From assembly GCA_027621365.1 (NCBI GenBank), contig JAQCBH010000004.1:1-64000 (forward strand): a DNA stretch of 64,000 nucleotides. Reading direction: 5' to 3'. This DNA is from Bacteroidota bacterium. Lineage in GTDB: Bacteria > Bacteroidota > Bacteroidia > NS11-12g > UBA955. Below the pieces are notes generated by a model. That model was not told the DNA's origin, made no database searches, and worked only from the letters and a program-made list of their open reading frames with translations. The translations under genes and the position numbers were made by a program. This document shows positions 7,897-28,207 of this stretch, piece by piece (position 1 is the stretch's first letter; each line of letters begins with the position of its first letter).

Positions 7897-9359
7897 GACT
7901 CTTGCGTTTTTCTGCGTTTTCGCCAAGGCATTTGAATCGACGACCAGGAGCGGTCTTTGTTGGCCTGATAGGTAATGAACAGCCCGATGGGAAGCAAGAA
8001 CAAGGAGCTCAACCACATGCCCAACCAAACAGGAACCACGCCTTCTTTGCCCATTTTTTCACCGGTCAGGTTAACCGCATAAAAGAGCACAAACAAGAGC
8101 ACAGAAATCACCAAGGGAAGGCCGATTCCCCCCTTTTGGATAATAGCACCAAGGGGGGCGGCAATCAAAAAGAGCAGCAACACGATCAACGACAAGGAGA
8201 ACTTCTTGTGCAGTTCGATTTGATACGGGCGAGCCGTTTCCACTTTGTATTCCATGTTGGTCTGCAGCCCATCAACGGTGCCCTTGATGCCCCGAGCGTG
8301 AGTAATGGCCGCGGCCATGATGACCTCGCGATCCTTCTTTCGATAATTGTTCAGAATATTGGGGTCGGTCAATGCCGGAACAATCGGCTTGCTTCGCTGA
8401 AGAGTAGTATCAAACTCTTGCATCGGATATAGGCCAGGAATGTGCAGGTACCGCGACATGTATTGCTCGTGCTCCTGAACGATCTCGGCTCGACGCATGA
8501 TGTTCGTATCCAAATCAGCCGACAACTGGCGCACGTTCAGCAGGCGATAATCGCGACTCATGGCCTTTCGATCGGTCAATTCCACGTCCAAGCTGGACAA
8601 ATCAATGGTCATTTGTTGCTTCTTGAAATGCATGGCATTGAAAGGGAAGGTCGAGCGGTACTCCTTTTGATTGGTCATTTCGTCGTAGCGTACCCCATTG
8701 TAAAGCGTAAACGAAAGCTCCGATTGGTCTGAACTGAGTTTCATCTGCCCCCATTCGGCGCGAAGCACGTTCAAGCGCTTGGACTCATCGTTTTTGAATT
8801 CGTAAATGAGCACATCGCGAACCGTTTCATTGTCTTTTTCTTTGGCGCCTATTCGAATGGAATACCCTTCAATGGCCTGATAGAATTCACCCGGGCTGAT
8901 GTTGAATGCGGGCTTTTTCTTTCTCAGGTCCATCAACATGGCCTTGGCCTCTAGGTTGGCTCTTGGAATGACTATGTTCAAAAACAAAAAGTTCAGCCCC
9001 ACCAAGGCAATCATGACCCATAAGGCAGGGCGCAGAATGCGCATGAGCGAAATGCCATTGGCTTTCATGGCCACTAACTCAAAGCTCTCCGATAGGTTTC
9101 CGAAGGTCATCAAAGAGGCCACCATGACGGTGAGGGGCAGAGCCATAGGAACCAGGTCAGCCAATGAGTAAAAGATCAACTGAAGCATGACCCCCGTCTC
9201 AATGCCCTTCCCTACCAATTCATCGATGTATTTCCATAGAAATTGCATCAAAAACAAGAACAGGCTGAGCAGGAAGGTGACAGCAAAGGGCCCCAAGAAG
9301 TTCCCCAAGATCAGGCGATCAATGGCGTTCAGTTTGAACTTGAACTTGTGTTGAGGCAT
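7893..9359 (-). CDS. LptF/LptG family permease (YjgP/YjgQ)
   Basis: This 488-residue inner-membrane protein is of the family that, with LptB, extracts lipopolysaccharide from the inner membrane and feeds it to the LptC-A-D bridge. It has three N-terminal helices (IDRLILGNFLGPFAVTFLL, then around 60-85 and 100-125), a long periplasmic beta-jellyroll region (about 130-370) and three C-terminal helices ending near SSLFLLPIGLFITYQ. The segment MALPLTVMVASLMTFGNLSESFELVAMKANG is strongly diagnostic. Bacteroidota usually have two such genes; only one is here. It is followed with ATGA overlap by a glycosyltransferase, which fits a role in LPS biogenesis. An exact TATATTTG box ends four bases before its ATG. 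Confidence 0.93.
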   Translation of the reverse strand: MPQHKFKFKLNAIDRLILGNFLGPFAVTFLLSLFLFLMQFLWKYIDELVGKGIETGVMLQLIFYSLADLVPMALPLTVMVASLMTFGNLSESFELVAMKANGISLMRILRPALWVMIALVGLNFLFLNIVIPRANLEAKAMLMDLRKKKPAFNISPGEFYQAIEGYSIRIGAKEKDNETVRDVLIYEFKNDESKRLNVLRAEWGQMKLSSDQSELSFTLYNGVRYDEMTNQKEYRSTFPFNAMHFKKQQMTIDLSSLDVELTDRKAMSRDYRLLNVRQLSADLDTNIMRRAEIVQEHEQYMSRYLHIPGLYPMQEFDTTLQRSKPIVPALTDPNILNNYRKKDREVIMAAAITHARGIKGTVDGLQTNMEYKVETARPYQIELHKKFSLSLIVLLLFLIAAPLGAIIQKGGIGLPLVISVLLFVLFYAVNLTGEKMGKEGVVPVWLGMWLSSLFLLPIGLFITYQANKDRSWSSIQMPWRKRRKTQES

Positions 9360-9389: not shown

Positions 9390-10388
9390 TTAAGGCAGTT
9401 CAATGGCAAAGCCAGGCACCACTCCGCAGGCGTCTCCTTGATTGAGGATTTCTCCAGAAAGGCCCAAGCGAAACAACCGACCTTTTGATACATAGTCCCG
9501 AGCATCGGTCAGACAAAACTCTTGGCGTTTGGCCAAATACTGCAAGGAGTAGGCATTCGACCAAGGTCCGGAGACCCATTGTTGGCATTCATCAGTGCTG
9601 CTTGCACCCAAGGGCATGCGCATCACAGCATTTCCTTTGAGGAAATAAGCCGCATCGGGACCCAAAGTCAACTCCGAAATCCCGGCTTTTTGGAAAGACC
9701 AGGTGGTTCGAATGCCTGAGGGCATGATGCGCATCAGGCTGGACCCGCTGTCCATATCGGAATTCAACACCCACAGGTTGCCAGAGGGATCAACTTCCAA
9801 TTCTTGGCATCCTTTGGCGGTCGTTATACTATCGACTCGCTGACCTTCAGCATTATACAGGGCTATCTGACCCTGGTATTCGGCTACTGCTAAACGGCCC
9901 TTCCAAGGAGTCAATTCTTCGGTCCAAGTCTGAGCCCAAGCCTCTGAAACTTTGGAAAGGGTTTGGGTATCCAACACCGTTAATTTCGACGCATACAAAT
10001 CGCTCACCCACAGCTTGCCCTGCCAAATCTGGGCATATCTCGGGCTCGTCAATTCGCGATTTTGATGACTCAATTTCAAGCTGTTGGCGTTCAACTTCAA
10101 GACGGACCCTGAATTGTTGACCACCACGTACAACAGATTTTCGTTCAAAACCGCAGATTGGGCTATGTCTCCTAAAGGGCGAGCATTGACCTTAGCAAAT
10201 TGCCCTAGAACGACCTTGGAAGAATCAGGATACCACACATCAATGGAAGCATTGTTCCATTGAAAGGTTCCTTCGCAGAGAATGGCTACCGATGAACCAG
10301 ATTGGGGCTCTTGGGGATCAACCAGCTCCTTGTCACAGGAACTCAGCAACAACAGAGCGGCGCCAAGGAATGCCTTGTTCAATTGCAT
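9390..10388 (-). CDS. YncE/DUF5074-like beta-propeller lipoprotein, BtuG-like
   Basis: This 332-residue predicted surface lipoprotein has signal sequence MQLNKAFLGAALLLLSSC with the lipobox cysteine at residue 18, followed by a run of blade-like repeats (PLGDIAQSAVLNENLLYVVVNNSG, LWVSDLYASKLTVLDTQTL, LEVDPSGNLWVLNSD) typical of YncE/DUF5074 propellers. In Bacteroides, BtuG proteins of this kind cap the BtuB transporter and bind cobalamin. The role here is inferred from the fold and from the operon: it is third after a B12 riboswitch, btuB-like and DUF4465 genes. The start at 10388 is preferred over the upstream in-frame codon at 10442 because it begins the lipoprotein signal and overlaps the previous gene by only 10 bases. 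Confidence 0.8.
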   Translation of the reverse strand: MQLNKAFLGAALLLLSSCDKELVDPQEPQSGSSVAILCEGTFQWNNASIDVWYPDSSKVVLGQFAKVNARPLGDIAQSAVLNENLLYVVVNNSGSVLKLNANSLKLSHQNRELTSPRYAQIWQGKLWVSDLYASKLTVLDTQTLSKVSEAWAQTWTEELTPWKGRLAVAEYQGQIALYNAEGQRVDSITTAKGCQELEVDPSGNLWVLNSDMDSGSSLMRIMPSGIRTTWSFQKAGISELTLGPDAAYFLKGNAVMRMPLGASSTDECQQWVSGPWSNAYSLQYLAKRQEFCLTDARDYVSKGRLFRLGLSGEILNQGDACGVVPGFAIELP

Positions 10389-11356
10389 ATCAAACGCAAT
10401 GACTGCACCCCAGTTGCATGGTATACACGAACGGTATACCATCCATTGGGCACTTGAAGATTGCAGGGCACGCGATGACCAGAAGCCTTTTGCTCGTGCA
10501 CCCGTCTACCCGACAAATCCAATACTTCGATACCCGTAACGGGCATAGTACTTTCAACCCAAAACTGACCAGAGCTGGGATTGGGGTACAGGATCAAGGC
10601 AGGATAGTTCGCTGCCGAATGAACCGATTCGGTGCGATCCATGTACAAGCGATCTATGGCGAAAAAAGCCGGCGTATTCATGCCAAAATCACCGTTGTCA
10701 GAACTGTACAATCGAAACACAATGGAATCTTGCAAGAACCCGGATAACAAGATCTGGTTCCAAGCCCCCATGATGGAATCTTGTGCAGCATTGGAGGAGC
10801 GAAAATCAGCCAATGCTACGCGTTGAGTGGACTGAGACTCGCCCTGCCAATAGGTCTCAATCTCAAGAAGAAAGCTATCGGCCTGAGAACCATCTTGGCC
10901 ACCAAATTTCTTGGCAAACATGTCTCCGTTCTTCATGCTGTTGTAGGCGTAAGTAGAATTGGCCACATACAGGCTGGCCAATCGAAGACCTCCACCCGTT
11001 TTGTTCAACAAATAGGCACCATTTTGGCCGATGGCGTATACTTTTCCAACCCCTTCTCCTTCTGCTCCCCAACCGGGCTTGGCACAGTAGAGTTGGGTAT
11101 TGAAATCACTGGCTCCCTCTTGGCCATTCACCTTGGCTGATAAAGCCCAATTGCTAGCCCAATACCCACCCCATGAGGTATCCCAACCCAAAGGGAGTTC
11201 AATGGACCCGTTGCTATATGACAGGTTCCCATCTGAGCCATTGAGTACTTGGCCCGAATCCAGACTAAGAGATTCGAAACCTTCTTCTAGTTGGCACCAA
11301 GCCGCAGAAGTGACCGTCATGACCATTAAAGTGGTCAGTAATTTTATTTTTTTCAT
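10379..11356 (-). CDS. DUF4465 protein with type A T9SS sorting domain, possible BtuH-like B12 binder
   Basis: This 325-residue secreted protein has signal peptide MKKIKLLTTLMVMTVTSAAWCQ (no lipobox), then a DUF4465-like domain (about 25-235: GWDTSWGGYWASNWALS, VYAIGQNGAYL, FLLEIETYWQGESQS, WNQILLSGFLQDSIVFRLYSSDNGDFGMNTPAFFAID). It ends in a C-terminal type A T9SS signal (ILYPNPSSGQFWVES, IEVLDLSGRRVHEQ, VPNGWYTVRVYH). DUF4465 proteins occur in Bacteroidota B12-uptake loci; as I recall, the BtuH cobalamin-binding lipoproteins of Bacteroides fall in this group. Here T9SS export and surface attachment replace the lipid anchor. It overlaps the btuB-like gene as ATGA, so it is co-translated with the receptor. 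The B12-binding role is inference. Confidence 0.78.
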   Translation of the reverse strand: MKKIKLLTTLMVMTVTSAAWCQLEEGFESLSLDSGQVLNGSDGNLSYSNGSIELPLGWDTSWGGYWASNWALSAKVNGQEGASDFNTQLYCAKPGWGAEGEGVGKVYAIGQNGAYLLNKTGGGLRLASLYVANSTYAYNSMKNGDMFAKKFGGQDGSQADSFLLEIETYWQGESQSTQRVALADFRSSNAAQDSIMGAWNQILLSGFLQDSIVFRLYSSDNGDFGMNTPAFFAIDRLYMDRTESVHSAANYPALILYPNPSSGQFWVESTMPVTGIEVLDLSGRRVHEQKASGHRVPCNLQVPNGWYTVRVYHATGVQSLRLICN

Positions 11357-13245
11357 TGTGATAATTGACTGTTGTAGTAGATAGAGAAGTATAGAAGGCG
11401 CGGGGCCATGGGCCTGCCGGGCATATTTTGATAAGACACATTGCTGAGATTTTCAGACCCCAAGCCCAAGCACCAATTCGTTTGAGGAAGCTGATAATTC
11501 CCGCTCAGTTCCCAAAGCGTGTAAGACGGCAAAGAAGCTTGGTTGTCTGTTTGTATGTAGCGTGAACCGTTATAGTTGGCTCTTAGGGTTATTTGCCATG
11601 ACTCATGCGAATACATCCATGCGCTTGTACCGTTCCATTTCGGCACAAACAACTGTTGCAAGGCTTTGACTTGCGTCTGATCCATCCAAACCCAAGACCG
11701 AACAGCATCCCAGCGATTGGTCCAGCGAAACTTGCCCTTCTGCCAGCGACTGTGTACTTGAAAACCCACAAATTGGCTGCGGTATAAATTTTGGGCTTGC
11801 CAAAACGATGAACTCGAAGGCAACCAAACAATGGGGTTGTCGAGTTCTCGAGCATACAGAGTACCCTCGAGCAGAACATTGCCCTGATTCCATTTTTTCA
11901 GCCCACTCATCTCTGCACCGTATCCTTTTTCTGGACTTAAATCGGGGATCAACCCAGAATTCCAATACAAATCATTGAAGGTGGGTCGGCGAAAACTACT
12001 GTGCAGATTGAATTTGAAAGTGGTCAATCCCTGCTGCCTTTCGCCAGAAAAAGAGAAAGTAGGCAAGCGCTCTACCCATTCCAAGCGGGACTGAAGCGAC
12101 ATTTTCCACTGATTGGTGGAACGATTCACGGCTATAAAACTGGCCCAATACCCTGTTTCTTGTTGGTAAAACGGAGTTAGTGCCAAAATGCGCAAACCAT
12201 CTTGACCAGCCATCAACTCCCATGATTCATGCGACCAATGGTACTCCAATTGCAAATGCTGGGCTCGACTATAGCTGCTGTCCCACTCTGGCAATGAGGT
12301 AGTTCCATCTTCAAATTGAATGGCATTGCTTGTTTGCCCCAAGCGCATCAAAAAGAGACCCCAGGGAGTTTGGGATTGTGTTTCAAACGACCACCTGAAC
12401 AGTTGATCTTGTTGAATTCCGAGCGAACTCTCTCTGCCCCACTGTTGACCCAAATGGCGTTGGCTCTGAAGTTGTTCAGCCTTAAAGGACATTTGCCATT
12501 GCCCGGGCGTATGGGATTGCCATGCGAGGTGTTGATTCCATCCCAACTGGGCGGTGCCTGCGTGTTGCATGACCCTGTCTGTCATCCAAATCGGATCATA
12601 AAAGCCGAATCGGTTTGCGTTCGCACGGCGTGACAAGGTTGTTGAGCTGTAAAAACGCGCAGTGCCCACCTGAGAGCGGAGCATCTGGTTGTTTCGGCCA
12701 TATTGACCGTTTTCAGCAAAGACTTGAATATTCGAGCCACCGAAAAACCGAGGGTTTTGATTCAGGTACAAGGTCCCTCCCACACTGCCACTCCCTACCA
12801 GGGTCGAAGATCCACCTTCCACCAACTCCACCCGATCCATCGACCAAATATTTTGGTTGTAAAAATCAGACATCCCTAGCATGGGATTGTTGACCGGCAG
12901 TCCATTCCAAACCACTTGGGTTTGTGTGGCATCAGCCCCTCGGCGGCCAACGGTGGTTGATCCAGACACACCGTATTGCTTCATGAACACACCCTCTGAC
13001 TCCAACAACTCAACTCCAGACCCTATGTCTACACTCGTCTCAAAGCCTACCCGAGAACGGCCCAATTCCGAGAATTTGGTTCGGCTATAGGCCGTGATAC
13101 GAACGGTGTCACTGATGGTATATGGCTCAGTGGGAGGCACAGATGGAACCACATGGACCGTATCCATGGGCATTCCGAAGGAACAAATGCTATGCAAACA
13201 AGCCAACCACATAGGTATAATGCGGCCAACGGGGACTAAGGGCAT
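11353..13245 (-). CDS. btuB: TonB-dependent outer-membrane receptor, BtuB-like
   Basis: This is a 630-residue outer-membrane barrel with an N-terminal plug. After the signal peptide there is a TonB-box-like stretch (ISDTVRITAYSR), then plug motifs (VGRRGADATQTQVVWNGLPVNNPMLG, MDRVELVEGGSSTLVGSGSVGGTLYLNQNP) and many amphipathic strands to the C-terminus (RLLYFSIYYN). The length is close to E. coli BtuB (about 600). A cobalamin riboswitch directly upstream and the two downstream genes make B12 the most likely substrate. The ATG at 13245 is chosen because it starts a reasonable signal peptide; the longer frame begins with a GTG at 13272. Confidence 0.88.
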   Translation of the reverse strand: MPLVPVGRIIPMWLACLHSICSFGMPMDTVHVVPSVPPTEPYTISDTVRITAYSRTKFSELGRSRVGFETSVDIGSGVELLESEGVFMKQYGVSGSTTVGRRGADATQTQVVWNGLPVNNPMLGMSDFYNQNIWSMDRVELVEGGSSTLVGSGSVGGTLYLNQNPRFFGGSNIQVFAENGQYGRNNQMLRSQVGTARFYSSTTLSRRANANRFGFYDPIWMTDRVMQHAGTAQLGWNQHLAWQSHTPGQWQMSFKAEQLQSQRHLGQQWGRESSLGIQQDQLFRWSFETQSQTPWGLFLMRLGQTSNAIQFEDGTTSLPEWDSSYSRAQHLQLEYHWSHESWELMAGQDGLRILALTPFYQQETGYWASFIAVNRSTNQWKMSLQSRLEWVERLPTFSFSGERQQGLTTFKFNLHSSFRRPTFNDLYWNSGLIPDLSPEKGYGAEMSGLKKWNQGNVLLEGTLYARELDNPIVWLPSSSSFWQAQNLYRSQFVGFQVHSRWQKGKFRWTNRWDAVRSWVWMDQTQVKALQQLFVPKWNGTSAWMYSHESWQITLRANYNGSRYIQTDNQASLPSYTLWELSGNYQLPQTNWCLGLGSENLSNVSYQNMPGRPMAPRLLYFSIYYNSQLSQ

Positions 13246-13311
13246 TGAATTAAAGAGGATGACCTCGATCACTCACTGCGCTTTTATTCCCGAAAGCGAG
13301 CAATTTTTGGA

Positions 13312-13475
13312 TCAAAGGCAGGTCTTCTGACTTCCCCAACCGAAGCGCCTTCCCACCCATCAGGGCAGTGGCAAAAAGGCTTCGGTTCATTGCGCAAAGC
13401 GCGGGGGTTACAGCTGCGGGTACAGTTGTCGATTCGCACGACATTCCCTTTTCATTCCTCACGAGTTTGACCAAC
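13312..13475 (-). ncRNA. Cobalamin riboswitch controlling the btuB-like operon
   Basis: Read on the minus strand, the conserved pieces of the cobalamin aptamer occur in order: AAAAGGGAAT near 13450, the ACCCGCAGCTGTAA stretch near 13405-13422, GCCACTGCCC near 13363-13376, GGGAAGGCG near 13349, and the 3' B12 box AGTCAGAAGACCTGCC at about 13318-13333. It ends about 70 bases before the btuB start codon. A 6-bp hairpin (CGCTTT/AAAGCG, 13279-13298) without a T-run lies between aptamer and gene, so translational or non-intrinsic control is more likely than classic termination. Boundaries are approximate. B12 binding should repress the operon. Confidence 0.94.
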
Positions 13476-13501
13476 GCGTTTGGAAACCAATAGAACCACT
13501 G

Positions 13502-13509
13502 CAAATATG
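13502..13509 (-). promoter_or_regulatory. Possible -7 box (CATATTTG) upstream of the B12 riboswitch
   Basis: The sequence matches TAnnTTTG at seven of eight positions on the minus strand and would start transcription near 13497, shortly before the aptamer. No -33 element is clear. Confidence 0.35.
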
Positions 13510-13619
13510 TTGAACTTTTAGCCTTCGATTGTTCACTGTTTGAAAATTGTTCAGAAGTCTCTTATCGGTTCTCTTTTGGGCTTTGGCGAAGCTCTTAACT
13601 AGGAGCCCATCATCGTGAT

Positions 13620-16342: not shown

Positions 16343-18538
16343 TTAGAATCGATCGATATGGAAAGTCGTTCTTCGGTTGAGCGCGTGCTGCGTTTCTGAA
16401 CAGGGCACTCCATCAGGACAAGGAACGGCAAGTTGAGTTTCTCCCACCCAAGTAGAACGAAAACGACTGGAAGGAAGGTTGTGTTTGGTCAACATGTAGT
16501 TCAATGCAGAACGCGTGCGTCGCATCGATAAATTCTGGTTGTACAAATCGCTAGCGCGAGCATCGGTGTGCGAGCGCAGTTCCACAACCACGTAGGAATA
16601 TTCCTTCATGAATCGAGCCAATTGATCCAAACTCTCTTTGTCTGCAGCATCCAATTCGGTGCGATCCAATTCGTAATAAACAGGACCGATACCCAAGTCA
16701 GACCCCAGCAAATCACCCTTTACCATGGGGGTCAGTTGAACCTCTACAACTCCAGTATCCAATACAGACTGGCGTACTTTGACCACCTTTGAGTAGTAGC
16801 CTCTGCGCTCCATTTTAATTTTACGCAAAGGATCATTCGCAGCAGGACTAACAGAAGAGCCACTGGCTGTTCCAGTTGAATTGGCGCCATTCGCAGTATT
16901 CCCGTTGGTTGAAGATCCTGCATTATTCAATCCTGAAGCATTGCCTGAAGCGGCCGTCGAAGAACCAGAGGTATTACCGGCTTGGTTGGAACCAGTACCA
17001 TTAGCGGCAGTTCCAGAAGCGGGAGGAGTACCAGAGGCTCCATTTGTGTTAGCAGTGGCTGCATTCCCCATTGGATTTTCATCAGACTCATCTTCATCAA
17101 TGAACGTCGCCTTGAAGGCTGCTACTTTTTGACCGTCCAACTCGTTGACGACACGAATTTCTGGATTCGCCACTGGCTTGGTCTTCACCACTGGGGTTTC
17201 GACTTTCACATCGTTCTGAGCAACAACAGGCTCGTCCAGGACGAATGGATCAAAACCATTTCGTGGACCAGCAGTAGCCTGAATGGCATAAATATCATCC
17301 ATATAAGTTCCGGCCACGCGATTGCTACTCAGGCTAATCCAGCCAGCAGCCATGGAAAAACCAAAATCATCGTACTCGGAATTGAATCGACCGGGCAAAC
17401 GCTTGAATTCACCGGTTTGCAAATGGAATTGAAACAGATCCAAGCCCCCTTTACCATAATGGCCTTCTGAAGAAAACACCAATACTTCATCGGTCAAAAA
17501 GAAAGGGAAATTCTCCCTTAGTGAGGTATTGATTTGAGCGCCCAATGAACGAACATTGGTCACCTCAAATTTGCCCATTTCACAGCTAACAACATCAGCC
17601 AGAAAAATATCAGATTGCCCGATGGAACCGAACCCGTTGCTAGCAAAGGCAGCCAACTTACCGTTGGGTGAAATGACCATACTGGAAACAGAAATGTTGG
17701 GGTCGTTGATATTCAAGGATGTCGCCACCCATTTTGAACCATCCCAATCGGAACGGTATACTTCAAACAAGCGCTCGTTGTTTTGATTGAATTCTTCGGC
17801 ATTCTGTGTATACAGCAGGGCGTTGCGCTCGGGCCAATACTGCGAAGGTTGATGGTGCAAATAAGTGGCCAAATCAGGGTTCAAACGATGGGCATCCTGA
17901 ATGTACAATTGCTTTTTACTATCGGCATCATCGGCTTGCAGCACTCCCAATTTGGAATCAAACAAAGCATAGTACGGACGATCAAAGACCGAACTCTTTT
18001 TGCGATCCAACAATACATCGGCATTGGCTGAATACAAGGCTACCAAGCCCTCGCCTTCACCTTGAGCCAAGACCAAACCATAGGCACCATAGGCTTTGGG
18101 ATCCAACAAGGTCTGAAAGGATTCCATGTTCCAGAAAGACTCTGTAACTTCGGTAGTATAAAAGGCGTTTACGGCCGTTGAGTAACCATTGGCTTTTGCT
18201 TTGTCAAGCAATATTTTAGCCGTGCTAACATTGCCCATTCTCAAATGAGCCAAAGCCGCATAAAAGCGATCTTCGTCGTTGTAGCGATCGGCATAATTGG
18301 CTTGCAAATGTTCAAATGCCGCCAGCGCTTTACCAGCATCTTGAACCAACAAATAAGACAGAGCCAAATCGTGCTGGGCCTCGTAGTTTTTATTCCTGGC
18401 CTGTGTTGATGAACCGTTCGCATGAATGACTTCAGCAAATTCTAAGTTCTTCGCATCGGTGCTATAAAAAGTTTGGGCCATAGCCAACCCACAGGCTGTG
18501 TAGCCTAATAAAAAAGAAACAATTTTCTTCATGTGCAT
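16343..18538 (-). CDS. OmpA-family protein with TPR and PD40 propeller, PorE-like
   Basis: This 731-residue envelope protein has a signal peptide (ends near GLAMAQ), TPR-like helices (about 50-130), a PD40/WD40-like propeller (about 200-430: MVISPNGKLAAFASNGFGSIGQSDIF, FFLTDEVLVFSSEGHYGKGGLDLFQF), a carboxypeptidase-regulatory-like segment (about 465-610) and a C-terminal OmpA domain (SHTDARASDLYNQNLSMRRT, about 655-675) that should bind peptidoglycan. The same domain order is known for PorE of the type IX secretion system. A Gly/Ser/Asn/Thr-rich run of about 65 residues is inserted in the regulatory-like segment. It ends the operon giant protein-PorP/SprF-OmpA. A second ATG at 18532 is an equally good start. 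Confidence 0.9.
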   Translation of the reverse strand: MHMKKIVSFLLGYTACGLAMAQTFYSTDAKNLEFAEVIHANGSSTQARNKNYEAQHDLALSYLLVQDAGKALAAFEHLQANYADRYNDEDRFYAALAHLRMGNVSTAKILLDKAKANGYSTAVNAFYTTEVTESFWNMESFQTLLDPKAYGAYGLVLAQGEGEGLVALYSANADVLLDRKKSSVFDRPYYALFDSKLGVLQADDADSKKQLYIQDAHRLNPDLATYLHHQPSQYWPERNALLYTQNAEEFNQNNERLFEVYRSDWDGSKWVATSLNINDPNISVSSMVISPNGKLAAFASNGFGSIGQSDIFLADVVSCEMGKFEVTNVRSLGAQINTSLRENFPFFLTDEVLVFSSEGHYGKGGLDLFQFHLQTGEFKRLPGRFNSEYDDFGFSMAAGWISLSSNRVAGTYMDDIYAIQATAGPRNGFDPFVLDEPVVAQNDVKVETPVVKTKPVANPEIRVVNELDGQKVAAFKATFIDEDESDENPMGNAATANTNGASGTPPASGTAANGTGSNQAGNTSGSSTAASGNASGLNNAGSSTNGNTANGANSTGTASGSSVSPAANDPLRKIKMERRGYYSKVVKVRQSVLDTGVVEVQLTPMVKGDLLGSDLGIGPVYYELDRTELDAADKESLDQLARFMKEYSYVVVELRSHTDARASDLYNQNLSMRRTRSALNYMLTKHNLPSSRFRSTWVGETQLAVPCPDGVPCSETQHALNRRTTFHIDRF

Positions 18539-18543
18539 TCTTT

Positions 18544-19476
18544 TTAGAAGAATCGAGGAACGGGTACCCGTCCTTGCGTCTTGTATGGTATCTGATACTG
18601 AACGCCAAACTCATGTGAACCCATGGTTGCTCCGTTGAAACGATTCAAACGGTAATCATAGGAATACAGGACTCGGAAATTCTCGGCCAAAACTGCGTTA
18701 ACCATCAATCCCACATCACCCTCGGTGCGGTAAAATGTACCCAAACTCAAATTCTCATTGAGAATGGCATGCACATTCACATCCAACTGAGTGGGAACTC
18801 CGTTGGTCATTTTCACCTGTGTGGTCGGTTTGATTTTCAAGGTTGGGCCCGCATCAAGCACTATTCCACCTGAAATGAAATAGTGCATTTGGGTCGCATA
18901 GGCGACATCAACTTGGTTCTGAATGTCTTCCTTAACGAAAACCATTCGAGGGGAACTGAAAGCCACAAACGACTTTTCATTGTACAAGTAAATGCCGAAC
19001 CCGGTCATGGGGGCTGTGATGGAATAATCTTGACTGAAAGAGCCATCACCAGGATTGTTCAACACCAACTTGGACATTTCCAATCGGTAATTGAACAAAC
19101 CGGCACGCAAACCAACGGCCATACGCCAATCGGCATTCAAACTCTTGTGATAGGCCAAGTTCAATCCCACATGGGTCTCTCCCAAGGGAGAGGCCTGCTG
19201 GAATTTTCCAATGGTACCGCTTTGGATGTTCAAGCCCAAAGCCACGTCTTTCCCAACTGGACTGTGAATCGCCAAGTTGTTGTATACAGGGGCTCCTGGC
19301 CAGTCAGTCCATTGAGTTCTGCGCATAGCCAAAGCCGTAAATGTACGTGGGGTGCCTGCGTACGCCGGATTCATAGCCAGCGAGTTCAGGTCGTAATGGG
19401 TGTACATCTGCTCCTGTTGCGCCATGGCAACAGAAGCAGACAATCCCAAAACCGCAGTGAATATGATATTCTTCAT
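18544..19476 (-). CDS. PorP/SprF family type IX secretion outer-membrane protein
   Basis: This 310-residue predicted beta-barrel has signal peptide MKNIIFTAVLGLSASVAMAQ and the family opening QMYTHYDLNSLAMNPAYAGTPRTFTALAMRRTQW. PorP/SprF proteins cooperate with T9SS substrates carrying type B C-terminal signals and are usually encoded just behind such a substrate. That is the case here: the giant surface protein gene ends nine bases before this start. Alternating-residue strands run to the end (SHEFGVQYQIPYKTQ). It is probably specific for the giant protein. Confidence 0.95.
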   Translation of the reverse strand: MKNIIFTAVLGLSASVAMAQQEQMYTHYDLNSLAMNPAYAGTPRTFTALAMRRTQWTDWPGAPVYNNLAIHSPVGKDVALGLNIQSGTIGKFQQASPLGETHVGLNLAYHKSLNADWRMAVGLRAGLFNYRLEMSKLVLNNPGDGSFSQDYSITAPMTGFGIYLYNEKSFVAFSSPRMVFVKEDIQNQVDVAYATQMHYFISGGIVLDAGPTLKIKPTTQVKMTNGVPTQLDVNVHAILNENLSLGTFYRTEGDVGLMVNAVLAENFRVLYSYDYRLNRFNGATMGSHEFGVQYQIPYKTQGRVPVPRFF

Positions 19477-19484
19477 GGGTTGTT

Positions 19485-22400
19485 TTATCGTTTGATGTAA
19501 AGGTTTCCAGAGATAGGATCCTTGATGAATTGAGGTTCACCCGTCCCATTGAATTCAAAGAGCAGGAAGTAGACGTTTTCAGGCAAGGGTCCTTGACCGA
19601 TGCTGAATGTCTTTCCATTGTATACACCATCCCAATCGTTCTGGTATCCGCGTGGAGATTCGTATACAATCTGACCCCAACGGTTGAAGACCGTCAATTT
19701 GGCTTGGGGGTAGTTCTTCAAGCCTTTGATGTACAACACATCGTTGGTACCGTCACCGTTGGGTGAGAATCCTTCTGGAATGAACACCTGCGGATCTCGC
19801 CAATCAGGAATGCCATTCTTGTCGCGATCACCGGTTCCTTCGGTCGCGTCATCGACTTCGTCGTTATCGGAATCCAAATCACGCCAATCACCAATGCCAT
19901 CACCGTCTGTATCTACATCGGTTTCGATTTCATCACTGATGCCGTCATCGTCAGAATCCAAGTCGCGCCAATCGCCTACGCCGTCACCATCGGTATCGAT
20001 GTCAGTTTCGATTTCGTCGCTGATTCCGTCGTTGTCAGAATCCAAATCGCGCCAGTCGCCTTTGCCATCGCTATCGGTGTCGACAGGGAACTTGGTGGGA
20101 CCGCGCTCAATCCAATCCAAAATTCCGTCTTCGTCTGCATCGATGTCTTTGTAATCAGGCAAGGCGTCGGCATCGGTGAAGATTTCCGCGTATCCGCCGG
20201 CAGCAATAACAGGGACACCGTTTGCATCGACCACAGGAGCACCTGTTCCGGCAATACCGTCCAAATCTGGATCAGAGCCGTCTACCTCAATGATGTCATC
20301 GATGGTGTCGTCATCGGTATCCAAGTCTTTGTAGTTAGGTGTACCGTCACCGTCCAAGTCAAGCTCGGTGCTTTGACCTTCGTTTTCAACAATATCCAAA
20401 ATACCGTCGTTGTCTACGTCCAAGTCGCGCCAGTCTCCTACTCCATCACCATCGGTGTCAAAGTCGGTTTCGATGTCGTCACCCAAGCCGTCGTTGTCGG
20501 TATCTAGATCTCGCCAGTCTCCGGTTCCGTCACCATCGGTGTCGCGATCGGTTTCGATCTGGTCGCTGATACCATCGTTATCGGAATCCAAATCGCGCCA
20601 GTCACCCGTACCATCACCGTCTGTGTCTACATCGGTCTCAATCTGATCGCTGATGCCGTCATTGTCTGTATCCAAATCGCGCCAATCACCGGTACCATCA
20701 CCATCGGTGTCGATGTCGGTCTCGATCTGATCGCTGATGCCGTCGTTATCGGAATCCAAATCACGCCAATCACGAGTTCCATCGCTGTCGGTATCAACCG
20801 GATCTTTGGACGGGCCACGCTCTACGCTATCTAGGATTCCATCATTGTCGGTATCGAGATCTTTGTAGTCAGGCTGAGCATCGGCATCGGTAAATACTTC
20901 GGCGTACCCGCCGTTAGCAATGGTCGGAACACCGTTAGCGTCTACGACGGCAGGTCCGTTTCCTGCTATTCCATCAAAATCAGGATCGTTTCCGTCAACT
21001 TCAACCACATCGTCGAAGCCATCGTTGTCGGTATCCAAATCTTTGTAATCAGGCGTGCCATCCAAATCCAGATCCAGGAGATAGTCTTTTCCTTCGTTCT
21101 CGACCACATCCAAAATGCCGTCGTTGTCGGAATCCAAATCCATGAAGTCGTAAACTCCGTCTCCGTCTTTGTCATCAGAACCTTCGATGTAGTCAGGTAT
21201 TGAATCGTTGTCAGAATCGCGAATCAACACCAAAACTCTTGTGCGAACAGGCCCTGTGGTATTGCCGTTCTTGTCGGTCACCCAAACATCGACATCTACC
21301 CAACCCGTATCGTTCAAGGTGAAGGTGTATTGGCTGACCAAGGTATCAATGGTACCGCAGTTGTCGGTTATGCTGGCAATCACGTCAACATTCACCATGC
21401 TGGCTTTGGCCGCCGTATCCAACCAAACGGTATGGGTTTTGGTTACAACCACAGGCTTCATGGTATCCAATACGGTTACATTGTAGGCCGCAAAGGCGCT
21501 GTTGCCTGAGTAGTCAGTAGCGATCAACATCAAATTGTGCACCCCGGTATCCGAGCAATCGAAACTGCTGTCTACAATGTTGTATTCACGAATCGAGCAG
21601 TTGTCGAACGAACCATTGTTGATCAAGGTATAGTTCGTACTTACAACCCCATTGACATCGAGGTAAACCGTGATGTCTTGTGCTTTCACCGTAGGTGCAC
21701 TGGTATCAAATACACGTACCGTAGCGGTAGCGGTCTGGGTATTCCCTGAACCGTCTACGGCAGTCAAAGTCACTACATTGAACTTACCCGTATCAGCGCA
21801 GCTGAAGGTCGATGGATTGACACTGAGACTCTTGATGCCACAGTTGTCGCTGGATGCATTGTCAATGTCAGCCGCAGTGAAGCTCACTTGGCCATTGGCA
21901 TCTAGTGCCAACACCAAGTTCTTTGTTAACACAATGGGCTTCGTAGTATCGGATACAGTCACGTAAGCGTGAGCCGTGTCGGTATTGCCAGAGCCGTCTA
22001 CAGCGGTCAATATTACCTTGTTCACCCCTGTATCGGAACAAGTGAAGCTAGAAGGACTTACGCTCAAGCTCTTGATGCCGCAGTTGTCATTCGAACCGCT
22101 GTTGACGTCAGAAGCGGTGATGCTAACCGCACCCGTTGCATCTAGGCTTATGCTGATGTTTTGGGTAATGGCAGTTGGCTTGGTCACGTCTTTCACAGTC
22201 ACGTAAGCGTGAGCCGTGTCGGTATTGCCAGAGCCGTCTACAGCGGTCAATATTACCTTGTTCACCCCTGTATCGGAACAAGTGAAGCTAGAAGGACTTA
22301 CGCTCAAGCTCTTGATGCCGCAGTTGTCGTTGGTACCGTTGTTCACGTCAGCAGCGGTGATGCTGATGCTGCCGCTGGCGTTCAAGTTCACGGTGATGTT

Positions 22401-25400
22401 CTTGGTGATCGCTGTGGGCTTGGTTACGTCTTGAATGGTCACATTCACTGTAGATGTGCTTGTGTTACCATTCACATCATAAACTGTAACCGTCACAACA
22501 TTGACCCCAGTATCATTGCAATCAAAGGTCGAATCGCTCAATACAAACTTCTGAATACCACAAGCATCGCTGCTTCCGTTGTCGATGTCTGACCAGGTGA
22601 TGCTAGCAGCACCAGTGGCATTCAAGTACACCGTTGCATTCTTCGCTGATGGAATGGGGCTACGAGCGTCTACTACGGTTACTGTAGCTGTCGTGCTAGC
22701 ATTGTTTCCATTTTTATCAGTAACCGTCATAGTTACTGTTTTAGATCCAACCTCAGAGCAATCAAACGTGGAATCGCTGAGTTTATAATCAACAATTTCA
22801 CAGTTATCGCTGGAACCATTGTCCATATCTGTATAGTTGATACTAGCACTACCGCTAGCATTCAAGTATACCGTAACGTTCTTGGCAGAAGCTACTGGAT
22901 TTGTGTAATCACCATTGACCAAAGTGATATTGGTTGATGCATTATTGATTACCGTACATCCTTTGGAATCTGATACAGCAATCTTGTATGGGCCCTTGGA
23001 CAAACCAGTAAATGATCCAGTATTCTGGTAGCTTGTACCGGAGTCAATGCTATAGGTCAATGTGTTTCCTCCTGCAGCCGTAATGGTGATAGTACCATCA
23101 GACGCCAAGTCACAAGAAGGATCTGTATAAGTTACTGAAGAGATTGTGGCAGCAGCGGGTTCTGTAATGGAAATGCTCGCTTTACTTGCCGTACATCCGT
23201 TTGCATCAGTAACTGATACACTGTAGATACCAGCAGCGAAATTGCTCGGATCTTCAACTGAGGAAGTGTAAGAGCCTGTTCCTGTCCAAGCAAAAGTGTA
23301 TGGAGTGGTTCCGCCAGTGACGGTGATATCAGCCGTACCATCGCTACCTCCGTTACAAGAAACCGGGGTTGTGGTTACAGTAGATGATACGCTCAACGCG
23401 GCAGCAGGCTCAGTGATCGTTACACTCAAGGTCTGGGTGCAGTTGTTGGCATCCTTTACTGTGATAGTATAAGTTCCAGCCGCCAAGCTGCCGAAGGTGG
23501 AGCTTGCGCCGTAACTGCCTGTGCCGATCTTATACGTGTAGGGGCTGGTTCCGCCTCCGGCTGTTACCGTTACTGAACCTGTAGAATTGCCGTAACAGGC
23601 CACATTCGTTTGGCTGCCGTTACTCAAGGTCAAGGCCGTAGGCGAGCCTACCACTACGCTTGAGTTGGTCGAAGTACAGCTTTTGGCATCGGTTACTACT
23701 ACGGTGTAGGTGCCCGCTGACAAGCCAGTGATGTCTTCTGTTGTTGCACTGTAGCTAGATGGGCCGCTCCAGGCATACGTGTAGGGAGTAGTACCACCGC
23801 TTACGGTGATATCAGCAGCTCCGTCAGTTCCACCATTACAGCTTACATCTGTTACCGATACGCTGCTAGAGCTCAACGCGGCAGGTTGGGTAATCGTCAC
23901 ACTCAAAGTACCCGTACAGCCTTGGGCATCTTTTGCCGTGATGGTATAAGTACCGGCGGCCAAGCCACTGAAAGTAGCGCTTGAAGCAAAGGAACCTGAA
24001 CCGATTTGATAGGTATAAGAACCAGAACCACCGCTAGCAGAAACCGTTACGGCACCGGTTGAGTTTCCGTTACAAAGAACATTGGTTTGGCTAGAGTTCG
24101 TTACAGAAACAGCTGTTGGCTCTGTCACTACCACACTAGCATTGACAGCTGTACATGAGTTGGCATCGGTAACTGTTACAGAATATGTTCCAGCGCTCAA
24201 TCCCGTAATACTAGCATTCGTTGAACCCGTGCTCCAAGAGTAGGTATACGTTCCTGTTCCGCCACTTGGCGAAGAGGCGGCAGAACCGTCGTTAGAACCA
24301 TTACAAGTCAAGTTGGTCACAGTGACTGAACTTGCGCTCAAAGCAGTAGGCTGAGTAACGGTCACACTATTATTGGTGGAAGTACAGCCACTGGCATCCG
24401 TTACTGTCACAGAGTAAGTGCCAGCTGACAAACCAGTAATGTCTTCTGAAGTAGAATTGTAGCTAAATGGTCCGCTCCAGGCATACGTGTATGGAGTAGT
24501 ACCACCGCTTACAGTGATATCGGCTGCACCATTACTTCCACCATTACAACTTACATGGGTAATGGCAACACTGCTTGAACTCAAAGCAGCCGCTGGCTGG
24601 GTAATGGTTACGCTCAAGGTTTGCGTACAGTTGTTCGCATCTTGTGCTGTAATGGTATAAGTTCCTGCGGCAAGACCGGTGAAGGTTGCGCTAGAACCGT
24701 ATGTTCCAGTTCCGATTTTATAGGTGTAAGGACTCGTTCCACCGGCAGCAGCCACAGTAACTGCACCGGTAGAATTTCCATAACACAATACGTTGGTTTG
24801 GCTAGAGTTGCTCAAGCTCAAGGCAGCAGTAGGCTCCGTCAAGGTAGCACTGGTAGTAGCCGTACAGCTGTTGCCGTCAGTAACGGTTACATTGTAAGTA
24901 CCGGCTGCCAAGCTTGAAATGTCTTCGGTTGTAGCCGTGTAACTGTTTGGTCCAGTCCAGGCATAAGACAGCGTGGCTGTTCCACTGGCGGTCAAATTGA
25001 TCGATCCCGTAGATGCACCATAACATCCAACGTTTGTTGAAGATGCTATTGTTGCTGTGGGGTTCGCATTTACTGTAATAGAAACAGTATTGGAGTATTG
25101 AACCGAACTGGCGGCATCGGTTACTTTTCTGCGGTAATCGGTGCTTGAGGTCAATCCAGAAGAGAACGAATAAGTGGCAGATGTAGCACCGCTTATGTCA
25201 GTCCAAGATGATCCACCAGCAGAAGTTGACTGCCATTGATAGCTCAATGTACCCGTTCCACCTGAAGCAGCTACACTGGATGTGAAACTAGAAGGCGTCG
25301 CTCCAGAACAAATGGTTTGGTTGCTAGCTACAGTTCCACCTGACAAAGATGAAGTCACGGTTATGGCTGATGTAGCTGTTCCGGTACAACCGTTGGCATC

Positions 25401-28022
25401 GGTGCCAGTTACGGTATAAGTAGTCGTGCTGGAAGGAGTCGCTGTTACAGATGAACCTGTTGTAGCTGACAAGCCAGTAGCCGGAGACCAAGAATAGGTT
25501 GATGCACCCGAAGCAGTCAAGGATTGAGAGTTGCCTTGCACAATGGTTGCGCTTGTTGGAGAAACAGAAACAGTCGGGTTGGAATAAACAGAGACTGAAA
25601 CAGTCGCCGTACAACTGTGGTTATCAGTGTATATGATGTAAGCCGTTCCCGCTGAAACCCCCGTTACGGTCTCATTGACCGTACTAGAACCCGAAACGGT
25701 CGCAATACCCGTCAATGCGGAAACCCATGCATTGCTAGCTGCTGGAGTGCCTGTTGCGGTCAAGGACGTTGTACCTGTTCCACAAATACTAGAGGTGCCC
25801 GAAACCGTTGGTTCCGAATAAACATTCATGGTAACAGTAGCCGTACAACCATTGTTATCTGTATAGGTAATAACAGAAGTACCAGCTGACACACCGGTTA
25901 CAACGCCACTAGAATTAATGGTCGCAACTGCCGTGCTGGCGGAAACCCATGGATTGCTTGTGGCTGGTGTTCCCGAACCAAAAATCATGCTCGTGGAAGT
26001 TCCACAAATTCCCGTAGTTCCTGTAATGGATGGACTGTTATTAACGGTAACGGTTTGAGACGTTGAACAACCATTATTATCCGTATATGTAATTGAACTT
26101 GTTCCGGCTGAAACCCCAGTAACGAGGCCACTAGAATTTACTGTTGCAACCGATGTGGCAGACGAAACCCAAGGATTGCTTGTGGCCGCCGTGCCAGAAC
26201 CTGTCAAAGCAGAAGTTCCGGTACCACAAATGCTGAATGTCCCAGTTATTGTAGGCAGGGCATTGACCACAACCGTTTCAGTTGCCGTACAACCGTTGTT
26301 GTCGGTGTAGGTAACAACCGAGCTACCAGCAGAAACGCCGGTTACAACACCACTTGAATTCACAGTTGCGACTCCTGTGCTAGCAGAGACCCAAGGGTTG
26401 CTGCTGGCAGCCGTACCCGAACCGGTTAAGGTGGTAGTACTACCCACACAAACAGATGTTGTACCCGTAATGGTTACTGCAGCCGGATCAGTCAAGGTAA
26501 CCACCTTGGTCGAAACCTTACCCGATGCTGATTTTACGTAGAAGGTATAAGTACCTGCTGACAATCCAGTGAATACGGAATCATTCCCATAGGTTGTTCC
26601 ATCTTTACTCCATGTGAACGGACGAGGTGCGTCATAACCCGAGATTTTCACGGAGCCGTCCGAGCCACCATTGCAGGTAGGGTTTGTTGCTGTAACAACA
26701 GTTACCGTTGGTGCGCCGCCTTCAACTATTGTCACAACTCCCGTATCCAACAAATTGGTGTAGATATACGCAGAAGCCGTATTAGTCAGAGAACCCGTAG
26801 CTGAGGCAGTAGCAAATACACGAATTTTCAGAGTTTTGGAGCTCCCAGCTGGCACAACCAATGAAATTTCACCTGAGGTAGCATCTGTAACACCACCAAC
26901 AAAGTTGAGAGTTCCTGTCGCCCCTGCAGCAGGAACACTTGATAGTTTGGACAAAGTATAATCAGTTCCAGCAGCCAAACGAACATATTCAAAGCCAGTC
27001 GGCAGCACGTCGACAATTTTATCAATGCTTACACTTGCACTCGAAGAAGAATTCGCAATGGTAATGGTATAAGTTAATGTATCAACACCAGGGGAATATT
27101 TAATCTTATCACAGGATTTGGATACTGAAATGGTATTGGCATTGGCACTTACAACTATGGGCTTACCCGTGGCCTTACTCCAAGAAGAATCAGCCACCAA
27201 ACCTTTTAAGTTAGTCCCACCTTGCTGGTTCATACTAAAGGGCACCAACAAAGTAGAATCTCCATATCCAACAATTCGCCATTTAAAAATCTGGCGTACC
27301 GCATAGTTTGTACTACCCGATGCCTTAAACGTAGGGTTGAAGTACAACTTATCTTTATCGCCAGCAGTCAAACCTAGTCCGGATGCACAACTGTCAACTT
27401 CGACAGAAATCAACTCCAACAAATCACCCTTGAACGTGTACAACGTTGAAGGAGAACAGAACAAATGGTTTCCAGAGCTGAAGCCCTGATAAGCAAACGT
27501 TACGCGATCTGTCACTATCGAGCCAATAACGTCAAGTTTTTGAACTGTACTTGATATAGAACCTGCTGATGCCGCCGTAATGACACCTTCAACATCAAGG
27601 GGCATTCGATAATACTGCGTATTGGCACCATTGTTTGCTTTGAATCGAATTTTTACAGCCTTGCCCTTGTCAGCGCAGTTAGCATGGACATAAAAATATA
27701 CCACTTTGCTTTGGCCAGCTACCAATTTACCAATAACTGCCGTTGCATTTGCAGGTCCTCGAACCACCCAACCAGAAGGCATGGAGTCCAAGGTCAAGGT
27801 TCCAACATCAATGGTCGTTGACCCCGAATTTGTCGCTTTTACCGTGACAAAATTTGCCGTTGGCGCAGCCACGCCACAACTGTTAGCATCCACATAGAAT
27901 AGAGGCCCACTTGTTGTAGAAAAACTCAAATTTGAGCTGATCTGCGCATTCAGCAGTTGGGTAGATAACGCACCAATCATTGCGATTAGGAGCGCTGTAA
28001 GTTTTGAGAATTTATTCTGCAT
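19485..28022 (-). CDS. Giant multi-repeat surface protein with type B T9SS signal (SprB-like adhesin)
   Basis: This is a secreted protein of about 2845 residues. After signal peptide MQNKFSKLTALLIAMIGALS come, in order: an N-terminal region with a DUF11-like module (TLTYTITIANSSSS); ten SprB-type repeats (pattern CxGxxxG, for example NVLCYGNSTGAVTV), the first separate from the rest; four BIG2-like Ig modules (WVSASTGVATVNSSGVVTG) and two further Ig-like modules; seven HYR-like modules of about 80 residues (KNITVNLNASGSISITAADV); an Asp-rich thrombospondin type 3 region, probably calcium binding (DLDSDNDGISDQIETD); and a C-terminal gliding-motility-type sorting domain (IPEGFSPNGDGTNDVLYIKG). 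SprB-like proteins act in adhesion or gliding. The start at 28022 is chosen because the promoter box lies at 28086-28093, inside the longer open frame that reaches 28100. Confidence 0.92.
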   Translation of the reverse strand: MQNKFSKLTALLIAMIGALSTQLLNAQISSNLSFSTTSGPLFYVDANSCGVAAPTANFVTVKATNSGSTTIDVGTLTLDSMPSGWVVRGPANATAVIGKLVAGQSKVVYFYVHANCADKGKAVKIRFKANNGANTQYYRMPLDVEGVITAASAGSISSTVQKLDVIGSIVTDRVTFAYQGFSSGNHLFCSPSTLYTFKGDLLELISVEVDSCASGLGLTAGDKDKLYFNPTFKASGSTNYAVRQIFKWRIVGYGDSTLLVPFSMNQQGGTNLKGLVADSSWSKATGKPIVVSANANTISVSKSCDKIKYSPGVDTLTYTITIANSSSSASVSIDKIVDVLPTGFEYVRLAAGTDYTLSKLSSVPAAGATGTLNFVGGVTDATSGEISLVVPAGSSKTLKIRVFATASATGSLTNTASAYIYTNLLDTGVVTIVEGGAPTVTVVTATNPTCNGGSDGSVKISGYDAPRPFTWSKDGTTYGNDSVFTGLSAGTYTFYVKSASGKVSTKVVTLTDPAAVTITGTTSVCVGSTTTLTGSGTAASSNPWVSASTGVATVNSSGVVTGVSAGSSVVTYTDNNGCTATETVVVNALPTITGTFSICGTGTSALTGSGTAATSNPWVSSATSVATVNSSGLVTGVSAGTSSITYTDNNGCSTSQTVTVNNSPSITGTTGICGTSTSMIFGSGTPATSNPWVSASTAVATINSSGVVTGVSAGTSVITYTDNNGCTATVTMNVYSEPTVSGTSSICGTGTTSLTATGTPAASNAWVSALTGIATVSGSSTVNETVTGVSAGTAYIIYTDNHSCTATVSVSVYSNPTVSVSPTSATIVQGNSQSLTASGASTYSWSPATGLSATTGSSVTATPSSTTTYTVTGTDANGCTGTATSAITVTSSLSGGTVASNQTICSGATPSSFTSSVAASGGTGTLSYQWQSTSAGGSSWTDISGATSATYSFSSGLTSSTDYRRKVTDAASSVQYSNTVSITVNANPTATIASSTNVGCYGASTGSINLTASGTATLSYAWTGPNSYTATTEDISSLAAGTYNVTVTDGNSCTATTSATLTEPTAALSLSNSSQTNVLCYGNSTGAVTVAAAGGTSPYTYKIGTGTYGSSATFTGLAAGTYTITAQDANNCTQTLSVTITQPAAALSSSSVAITHVSCNGGSNGAADITVSGGTTPYTYAWSGPFSYNSTSEDITGLSAGTYSVTVTDASGCTSTNNSVTVTQPTALSASSVTVTNLTCNGSNDGSAASSPSGGTGTYTYSWSTGSTNASITGLSAGTYSVTVTDANSCTAVNASVVVTEPTAVSVTNSSQTNVLCNGNSTGAVTVSASGGSGSYTYQIGSGSFASSATFSGLAAGTYTITAKDAQGCTGTLSVTITQPAALSSSSVSVTDVSCNGGTDGAADITVSGGTTPYTYAWSGPSSYSATTEDITGLSAGTYTVVVTDAKSCTSTNSSVVVGSPTALTLSNGSQTNVACYGNSTGSVTVTAGGGTSPYTYKIGTGSYGASSTFGSLAAGTYTITVKDANNCTQTLSVTITEPAAALSVSSTVTTTPVSCNGGSDGTADITVTGGTTPYTFAWTGTGSYTSSVEDPSNFAAGIYSVSVTDANGCTASKASISITEPAAATISSVTYTDPSCDLASDGTITITAAGGNTLTYSIDSGTSYQNTGSFTGLSKGPYKIAVSDSKGCTVINNASTNITLVNGDYTNPVASAKNVTVYLNASGSASINYTDMDNGSSDNCEIVDYKLSDSTFDCSEVGSKTVTMTVTDKNGNNASTTATVTVVDARSPIPSAKNATVYLNATGAASITWSDIDNGSSDACGIQKFVLSDSTFDCNDTGVNVVTVTVYDVNGNTSTSTVNVTIQDVTKPTAITKNITVNLNASGSISITAADVNNGTNDNCGIKSLSVSPSSFTCSDTGVNKVILTAVDGSGNTDTAHAYVTVKDVTKPTAITQNISISLDATGAVSITASDVNSGSNDNCGIKSLSVSPSSFTCSDTGVNKVILTAVDGSGNTDTAHAYVTVSDTTKPIVLTKNLVLALDANGQVSFTAADIDNASSDNCGIKSLSVNPSTFSCADTGKFNVVTLTAVDGSGNTQTATATVRVFDTSAPTVKAQDITVYLDVNGVVSTNYTLINNGSFDNCSIREYNIVDSSFDCSDTGVHNLMLIATDYSGNSAFAAYNVTVLDTMKPVVVTKTHTVWLDTAAKASMVNVDVIASITDNCGTIDTLVSQYTFTLNDTGWVDVDVWVTDKNGNTTGPVRTRVLVLIRDSDNDSIPDYIEGSDDKDGDGVYDFMDLDSDNDGILDVVENEGKDYLLDLDLDGTPDYKDLDTDNDGFDDVVEVDGNDPDFDGIAGNGPAVVDANGVPTIANGGYAEVFTDADAQPDYKDLDTDNDGILDSVERGPSKDPVDTDSDGTRDWRDLDSDNDGISDQIETDIDTDGDGTGDWRDLDTDNDGISDQIETDVDTDGDGTGDWRDLDSDNDGISDQIETDRDTDGDGTGDWRDLDTDNDGLGDDIETDFDTDGDGVGDWRDLDVDNDGILDIVENEGQSTELDLDGDGTPNYKDLDTDDDTIDDIIEVDGSDPDLDGIAGTGAPVVDANGVPVIAAGGYAEIFTDADALPDYKDIDADEDGILDWIERGPTKFPVDTDSDGKGDWRDLDSDNDGISDEIETDIDTDGDGVGDWRDLDSDDDGISDEIETDVDTDGDGIGDWRDLDSDNDEVDDATEGTGDRDKNGIPDWRDPQVFIPEGFSPNGDGTNDVLYIKGLKNYPQAKLTVFNRWGQIVYESPRGYQNDWDGVYNGKTFSIGQGPLPENVYFLLFEFNGTGEPQFIKDPISGNLYIKR
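19850..21220 (-). repeat. Asp-rich thrombospondin type 3 repeat DNA with 84-bp period
   Basis: This part of the giant gene encodes DxDxDG calcium-site motifs. Much of it follows a 28-residue (84-bp) unit around DLDSDNDGISDQIETDxDTD, clearest at about 20400-20780 and 19880-20060. Two longer blocks with DYKDLDTDNDG and WIERGP/SVERGP bracket the units, suggesting duplication of a larger segment. Confidence 0.8.
21955..22328 (-). repeat. Exact 134-bp direct repeat inside the giant gene
   Basis: Positions 21955-22088 and 22195-22328 are identical base for base, with an offset of exactly 240 bp (80 codons, one HYR-like module). Neighbouring modules share the protein pattern but have diverged in DNA, so this copy is recent or kept by gene conversion. 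Confidence 0.93.
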
Positions 28023-28085
28023 ACTTTTTAAGTTCAATTTCATTAAGCCTAGCGATATTCCCACTAGACACATCTTTCGAATGTT

Positions 28086-28093
28086 CAAAAGTA
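28086..28093 (-). promoter_or_regulatory. -7 promoter box TACTTTTG of the T9SS surface operon
   Basis: An exact TAnnTTTG on the minus strand would start transcription near 28080, leaving a leader of about 57 bases before the ATG at 28022. No clear -33 TTG. The rest of the divergent gap (28094-28205) shows nothing else that I can support. Confidence 0.5.
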
Positions 28094-28207
28094 CAACCAT
28101 ACGTCCTCATAACATAGTTATAAAACCTAACATTCTATAACATTTTGTTTAAGCTACCAACCTTTCGAAACCAAGCGTCAGGTCAGGGTCATTTGAAGAA
28201 TTAACTT

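Follow-up and report, generated by a model that had tools for sequence, protein, structure and literature searches.

How can a bacterium place a vitamin B12 binder outside the cell when the binder carries no lipid anchor? The question is raised by three overlapping genes in the window, by which we mean the whole 64,000-nt stretch of DNA that was analyzed (contig JAQCBH010000004.1, assembly GCA_027621365.1, Bacteroidota). Environmental Bacteroidia live in settings where the exchange of B12 between microbes and algae is important. The type IX secretion system (T9SS), for its part, is known chiefly for enzymes, adhesins, and motility proteins. In the DUF4465 family paper, more than 70% of the members were lipoproteins and the remainder were periplasmic (PMC13398666). 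The initial annotation of the locus proposed a B12 capture operon in which a DUF4465 protein is routed through the T9SS while its propeller partner keeps a lipobox.

Organization of the operon

The gene order given by that annotation, a cobalamin riboswitch followed by a BtuB-like receptor, a DUF4465 protein, and a propeller protein with overlapping ends, was borne out (Table 1). On the minus strand, the receptor open reading frame (13272-11353) overlaps the DUF4465 frame (11356-10379) by 4 nt, and the end of the latter overlaps the start of the propeller gene by 10 nt; the three genes are thus very likely cotranscribed. The flanks are presumably a TolC-like gene that starts at 13615 and runs in the opposite direction and, after the operon, an LptF/G-like permease gene at 9359, so that the operon is compact. 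A search of the riboswitch region for an expression platform gave no clear candidate; the leader fold had a z score of −1.5, and a terminator-like match lies at 13230-13202 on the minus strand.

Table 1. Positions of the operon features in the window
Feature	Position	Strand	Basis
Cobalamin riboswitch aptamer, complete	13300..13507	−	Rfam RF00174, 98.2 bits, E 2.8e-23 (gathering score, 31.5)
BtuB-like TonB-dependent receptor (open reading frame)	11353..13272	−	PF07715 plug, 43.4 bits
DUF4465 protein, 325 aa; plain signal peptide, T9SS type A C-terminal domain	10379..11356	−	PF14717, TIGR04183, AlphaFold, Foldseek
N-terminal signal peptide MKKIKLLTTLMVMTVTSAAWCQ, without lipobox (Trp before Cys)	11294..11356	−	Inspection and script
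DUF4465 domain, residues 61-236	10649..11176	−	PF14717 (IPR027828) profile
Phe231, HI loop (MNTPAFF), aligned with the B12-binding Tyr245 of BtuJ1	10664..10666	−	Alignment
T9SS type A sorting domain, residues 256-323 (YPNPSSGQF...)	10388..10591	−	TIGR04183, own-genome HMM, fold
BtuG-like propeller lipoprotein, most likely ATG at 10388	9390..10388	−	8p97_B match
Lipobox LSSC (within LLLSSC), then acidic DKE	10335..10346	−	Sequence

The real start of the receptor probably lies inside the listed frame, near 13245. Its nearest solved relatives are the Bacteroides BtuB chains 8bmx_C (E 6e-29) and 8p97_A, which together with the riboswitch context (RF00174) group it with BtuB. It is named BtuB-like rather than BtuB because it falls far under the cut-off of the TIGR01779 equivalog model (44.7 bits versus 599.7). 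The motif DTVRITA, which we take to be TonB-box-like, is similar to DTLVVTA of Escherichia coli BtuB.

The propeller protein had been described as a DUF5074-type lipoprotein, and this description held only in part. The surface lipoprotein signal expected of a BtuG is present, with the lipobox followed by acidic DKE, whereas the DUF5074 profile PF16819 stayed under its cut-off (18.9 bits versus 27.2). The protein is therefore called BtuG-like. It matches the BtuG chain 8p97_B of the solved BtuBG complex across the whole propeller (residues 41-344; E 3e-18), and eight further BtuG-type chains match below 2e-15.

Domain, fold, and sorting signals of the DUF4465 protein

Profile searches for the two domains of this protein had been named beforehand as a possible refutation of the annotation, and both profiles were passed: PF14717 gave 96.7 bits on the 325-residue protein (cut-off, 25) and TIGR04183 gave 28.1 bits on its tail (cut-off, 23). 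The best solved sequence relatives are all DUF4465 proteins (9hmu, 4jqr, 9i2l, and 4e9k). An AlphaFold model (mean pLDDT, 77; alignment of 16 homologues) retrieved the B12-bound DUF4465 structures 9hmu, 9qpm, and 9fct in Foldseek with E values of about 1e-11 to 1e-12, the match to 9hmu_A having an E value of 4.7e-12 and a TM score of 0.75 of the target; 4jqr was matched too. The protein is thus predicted to fold as the augmented beta-jellyroll of the B12-bound members.

Sec signal peptides and lipoboxes of DUF4465 proteins were called by inspection and script. The cysteine of SAAWCQ in the window protein was considered as a lipobox and rejected, as it has a Trp at −1 and the corresponding GSAHAQ of a 62% identical homologue (L006) has no Cys. 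The signal peptide is therefore plain, as annotated, and the protein, although of the DUF4465 family, is not a BtuJ-type lipoprotein. At the other end, the type A T9SS tail was recognized by several comparisons. An HMM trained on 19 further T9SS tails encoded in this genome gave 47.9 bits, compared to at most 8.4 bits for 5000 shuffles of the tail. PF18962 was marginal (26.5 bits, narrowly under the cut-off of 27), and the protein ends in LRLICN, a less typical sequence than the KxIKK that is usual there. In Foldseek, the chain end matched the NucA T9SS signal domain caught in the translocon (8glk_D; TM score, 0.83 of the target; rmsd, 2.0) as well as the signal domains of RgpB and mirolase. 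Judging from these signals, the DUF4465 protein is probably exported by the T9SS.

Distribution of the arrangement in Bacteroidia

The initial annotation had raised the matter of how often DUF4465 proteins next to btuB carry T9SS domains. DUF4465 was present in 112 of 395 evenly sampled Bacteroidia species. With a tail called T9SS at 20 bits or more, and counting the intact DUF4465 proteins of the loci read (n = 109), 99 carried a T9SS tail, 6 had a long tail below 20 bits, and 4 were lipoproteins without a tail. In the order to which the window belongs, the tail was present on all 77 intact proteins, so the arrangement is not a peculiarity of one genome. The neighborhood is conserved as well. 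Of 124 DUF4465 loci, 105 have a TonB-dependent receptor no more than 1.5 kb away on the same strand; a propeller follows downstream in 81 of 104, and a cobalamin riboswitch precedes the operon or btuB in each of the 20 related loci tested. The related well-scored propellers all have a Cys lipobox (108/108) and none has a T9SS tail (0/108); an acidic residue stands at +1 to +4 of the lipobox in 86 of 90 distinct propellers. A T9SS-tagged DUF4465 protein beside a lipoprotein propeller is therefore the rule, and the conservation of tails, neighbors, riboswitch, and lipoboxes indicates that this division of labor between lid and binder is a stable design.

Some loci encode tandem DUF4465 proteins, with two domains in a polypeptide of ∼530 to 590 residues and one T9SS tail (L065-L093, which are order-mates in group f2, and L039, L040, L048, L056, L137, and L160). 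These may perhaps offer two B12 sites per exported protein.

Anchor type and presence of the T9SS

SprA was found in 78 of 80 DUF4465-bearing genomes tested, and the two without it belong to one genus whose DUF4465 proteins are lipoproteins. Both fall in the family labeled f34, which from its pattern and position we take to be Bacteroidaceae. In this family, which includes Bacteroides, lipoprotein DUF4465s predominate and SprA is missing from 16 of the 35 DUF4465 genomes. Among the 13 SprA-less f34 genomes with readable loci, a T9SS tail occurred in none and clear lipoproteins in 12. Of the SprA-positive members, 10 keep lipoprotein DUF4465s and 8 have other C-terminal extensions. A strict rule that presence of the T9SS means a T9SS tail was rejected because of these 10 genomes: in the genomes examined, the tail was found only where the T9SS exists, but the converse fails. 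The association of SprA with anchor type is strong (Fisher test, P = 2e-13); however, anchor types are clustered on a tree of 78 domains (7 changes observed versus 29.8 in shuffles), and the P value is therefore no evidence for many independent switches. The clustering suggests that switches were few and that each anchor was then long retained.

The DUF4465 proteins of six f34 loci (L234, L235, L236, L241, L242, and L250) have no lipobox and a short end tail of ∼55 to 60 residues, in several cases as GIYIVNGQKVLVK. Perhaps these tails are a divergent T9SS signal missed by the models.

T9SS machinery and B12 use in the host genome

The genome is a 2.13-Mb MAG that is 94% complete. It encodes the T9SS translocon protein SprA (536 bits) and the sortase PorU (927 bits), and 54 T9SS type A tails were counted. 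The B12-dependent methionine synthase MetH and the IcmF mutase are also encoded. Elsewhere in the genome, one FecCD permease gene adjoins a gene for a periplasmic binding protein, and this pair could be BtuC and BtuF. CbiC was not found, although at 94% completeness its absence is just suggestive. Taken together, these features lead to the natural reading that the host is a B12 user that takes up corrinoid rather than making it.

In the window itself, on the minus strand, a gene for a 2871-residue repetitive surface protein (19485-28100) is followed by PorP/SprF-like and OmpA-like genes (18544-19476 and 16343-18538). The end of the large protein looks like a type B T9SS tail of the gliding type, and the cassette would be typical of type B T9SS.

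A model for T9SS-dependent B12 capture

We estimate a probability of about 80% that the operon is a B12-repressed outer-membrane capture system in which a T9SS-exported DUF4465 binder feeds BtuB-BtuG. The riboswitch would turn the operon off when cobalamin is plentiful. The BtuB-like protein would be the channel, driven by TonB, and would have the propeller lipoprotein as its BtuG-type lid, the role that BtuG has on BtuB (PMC10404256). The DUF4465 protein, a BtuJ-type B12 binder, would cross the inner membrane via Sec and be exported by the T9SS through its C-terminal domain, with cleavage probably by PorU. Displayed on the surface or released, it would gather corrinoid outside the cell and hand it over to BtuB-BtuG. 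The T9SS signal would thereby fill the placement role that lipidation has in Bacteroides BtuJ. That the T9SS can carry a cofactor binder has a precedent in the heme binder HBP35 of Porphyromonas gingivalis, which is T9SS cargo (PMC3120885).

The choice between display and release is the point at which a different outcome has the best chance. If the signal is cleaved and the protein is shed to the medium or to vesicles, it would act as a hemophore-like scavenger and reload BtuG, instead of being a binder fixed to the cell surface. In favor of this, BtuJ1 and BtuJ2 of Bacteroides thetaiotaomicron are a B12 source on vesicles and deliver from outside the cell (PMC12751083); the PorU sortase is encoded in the genome and the DUF4465 protein has no other membrane anchor. 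However, in dilute water it is costly to rely on a free carrier, and in P. gingivalis PorU cleavage is coupled to A-LPS attachment, which keeps cargo such as HBP35 on the cell (PMC3120885). We hold release to be somewhat doubtful.

The ligand of the DUF4465 protein has to be considered too, since the hallmark Tyr of the HI loop is absent from the window protein, which has Phe231 instead. The corresponding Tyr245 of BtuJ1 was reported as critical and as conserved in 97% of homologues (PMC13398666), and proteins with Phe might bind another corrinoid form or bind weakly, in which case the DUF4465 protein would be a B12 sensor or buffer and not a tight collector. This is unlikely. Across 247 surveyed domains the position was nearly always one of the two residues (142 Tyr and 102 Phe), and therefore the published 97% is not valid for Bacteroidia at large; in the f34 set, no Phe occurred wherever the motif was readable. 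Furthermore, Phe loci are the same riboswitch-btuB-btuG loci, and the DE-loop/DE-helix Tyr (Tyr136 in NSTYAYNSM) and the NTP motif are both retained in the window protein. Phe is thus a natural variant in Bacteroidia DUF4465 proteins, and its frequency does not support reading Phe231 as a sign of decay with loss of B12 binding. Because the family is defined by profile and fold and Phe is common in it, Phe231 weakens the binding claim but not DUF4465 membership. Eight divergent DUF4465 proteins bind B12 (PMC13398666), and the window protein would be expected to do the same.

It is very improbable that the protein is an ordinary periplasmic one with an Ig-like tail of no sorting role, as might be concluded from the "periplasmic targeting signals" that the family paper gives to non-lipoproteins (PMC13398666), since the tail passes TIGR04183, exceeds every shuffle, matches solved T9SS signal domains, and occurs in T9SS-bearing genomes but in 0 of 13 SprA-negative relatives examined. 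T9SS-dependent capture thus remains the preferred reading.

Sorting signals beyond Bacteroidota and a second protein family

DUF4465 proteins with PEP-CTERM ends were found in Hydrogenophilales, Comamonadaceae, and Kiritimatiellales loci, with scores over the TIGR02595 cut-off in L022, L026, and L028 and narrowly under it in L027 and L030. The protein of a Desulfobacteraceae locus (L029) ends in a CFI-box motif that scored narrowly above the cut-off. These genes (L022 and L026-L030) adjoin TonB-dependent receptors or riboswitches, and a cobalamin-class riboswitch was present in 9 of the 10 non-Bacteroidota DUF4465 loci tested.

Of 99 well-flanked B12 loci, 41 encode a second, unnamed family next to DUF4465, and the two are fused in 7 frames. 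Examples were seen at L015 (10013-10975) and in L013, L018, L020, L021, L022, L026, L029, L030, L146, L153, and L166; none was found in the family-mates of the window that were checked. Its members are 40 to 50% identical across phyla and exchange T9SS, PEP-CTERM, and CFI-box tails likewise. The core had no Pfam match and no close solved fold, only weak jellyroll matches. The family is a candidate new B12 binder.

These patterns make it somewhat probable that B12 capture proteins are cross-phylum surface-display modules whose sorting signal goes with lineage: Bacteroides and its family use a lipobox, most other Bacteroidia a T9SS tail, Betaproteobacteria and Kiritimatiellota PEP-CTERM, and one Desulfobacteraceae genome a CFI box, with the second family using the same signals. 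In that case, selection would generally favor the extracellular placement of B12 binders, and the T9SS would be a device for micronutrient uptake.

Comparison with known systems

The DUF4465 domain, the receptor-lid pair, the cobalamin riboswitch, and T9SS tails are each already known. No paper on DUF4465 with T9SS or PEP-CTERM was found in a search of the open-access journal literature. Relative to the literature searched, what is new is the combination of a B12 binder with the T9SS, the dominance of this arrangement in Bacteroidia, and the lineage-wise swap of sorting signals. The T9SS thus looks like a routine part of B12 uptake in environmental Bacteroidia, and this corrects the published view that DUF4465 proteins are either lipoproteins or periplasmic. 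The same binder with different sorting signals is also a natural experiment on why B12 binders have to be extracellular.

Several known systems resemble parts of the locus. First, HBP35 of P. gingivalis is a cofactor (hemin) binder exported to the surface by the T9SS, as is proposed for the window protein; however, its domain is unrelated, its ligand is heme and not B12, and it lies outside a receptor-lid operon as far as tested. Second, the closest solved structure by both sequence and fold is the DUF4465-B12 complex of D5EK51 from Coraliomargarita (9hmu), which is from outside Bacteroidota and whose solved chain, unlike the window protein, has no T9SS tail. Third, BtuJ1 and BtuJ2 of B. thetaiotaomicron (BT_1491 and BT_1957) have the same DUF4465 domain and fold and are encoded in a riboswitch-controlled btu locus beside BtuB and BtuG, but they are lipoproteins on vesicles with the HI-loop Tyr, whereas the window protein has a plain signal peptide, a T9SS tail, and Phe. 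Finally, the BtuB-BtuG pedal-bin complex of B. thetaiotaomicron (8p97, 8bmx, and 8blw) consists of a receptor and a propeller lipoprotein lid that are clear sequence relatives of the window pair. To this pair, the Bacteroides btu loci add the lipoprotein binders BtuH, BtuK, and BtuJ, whereas the locus in the window adds a T9SS cargo.
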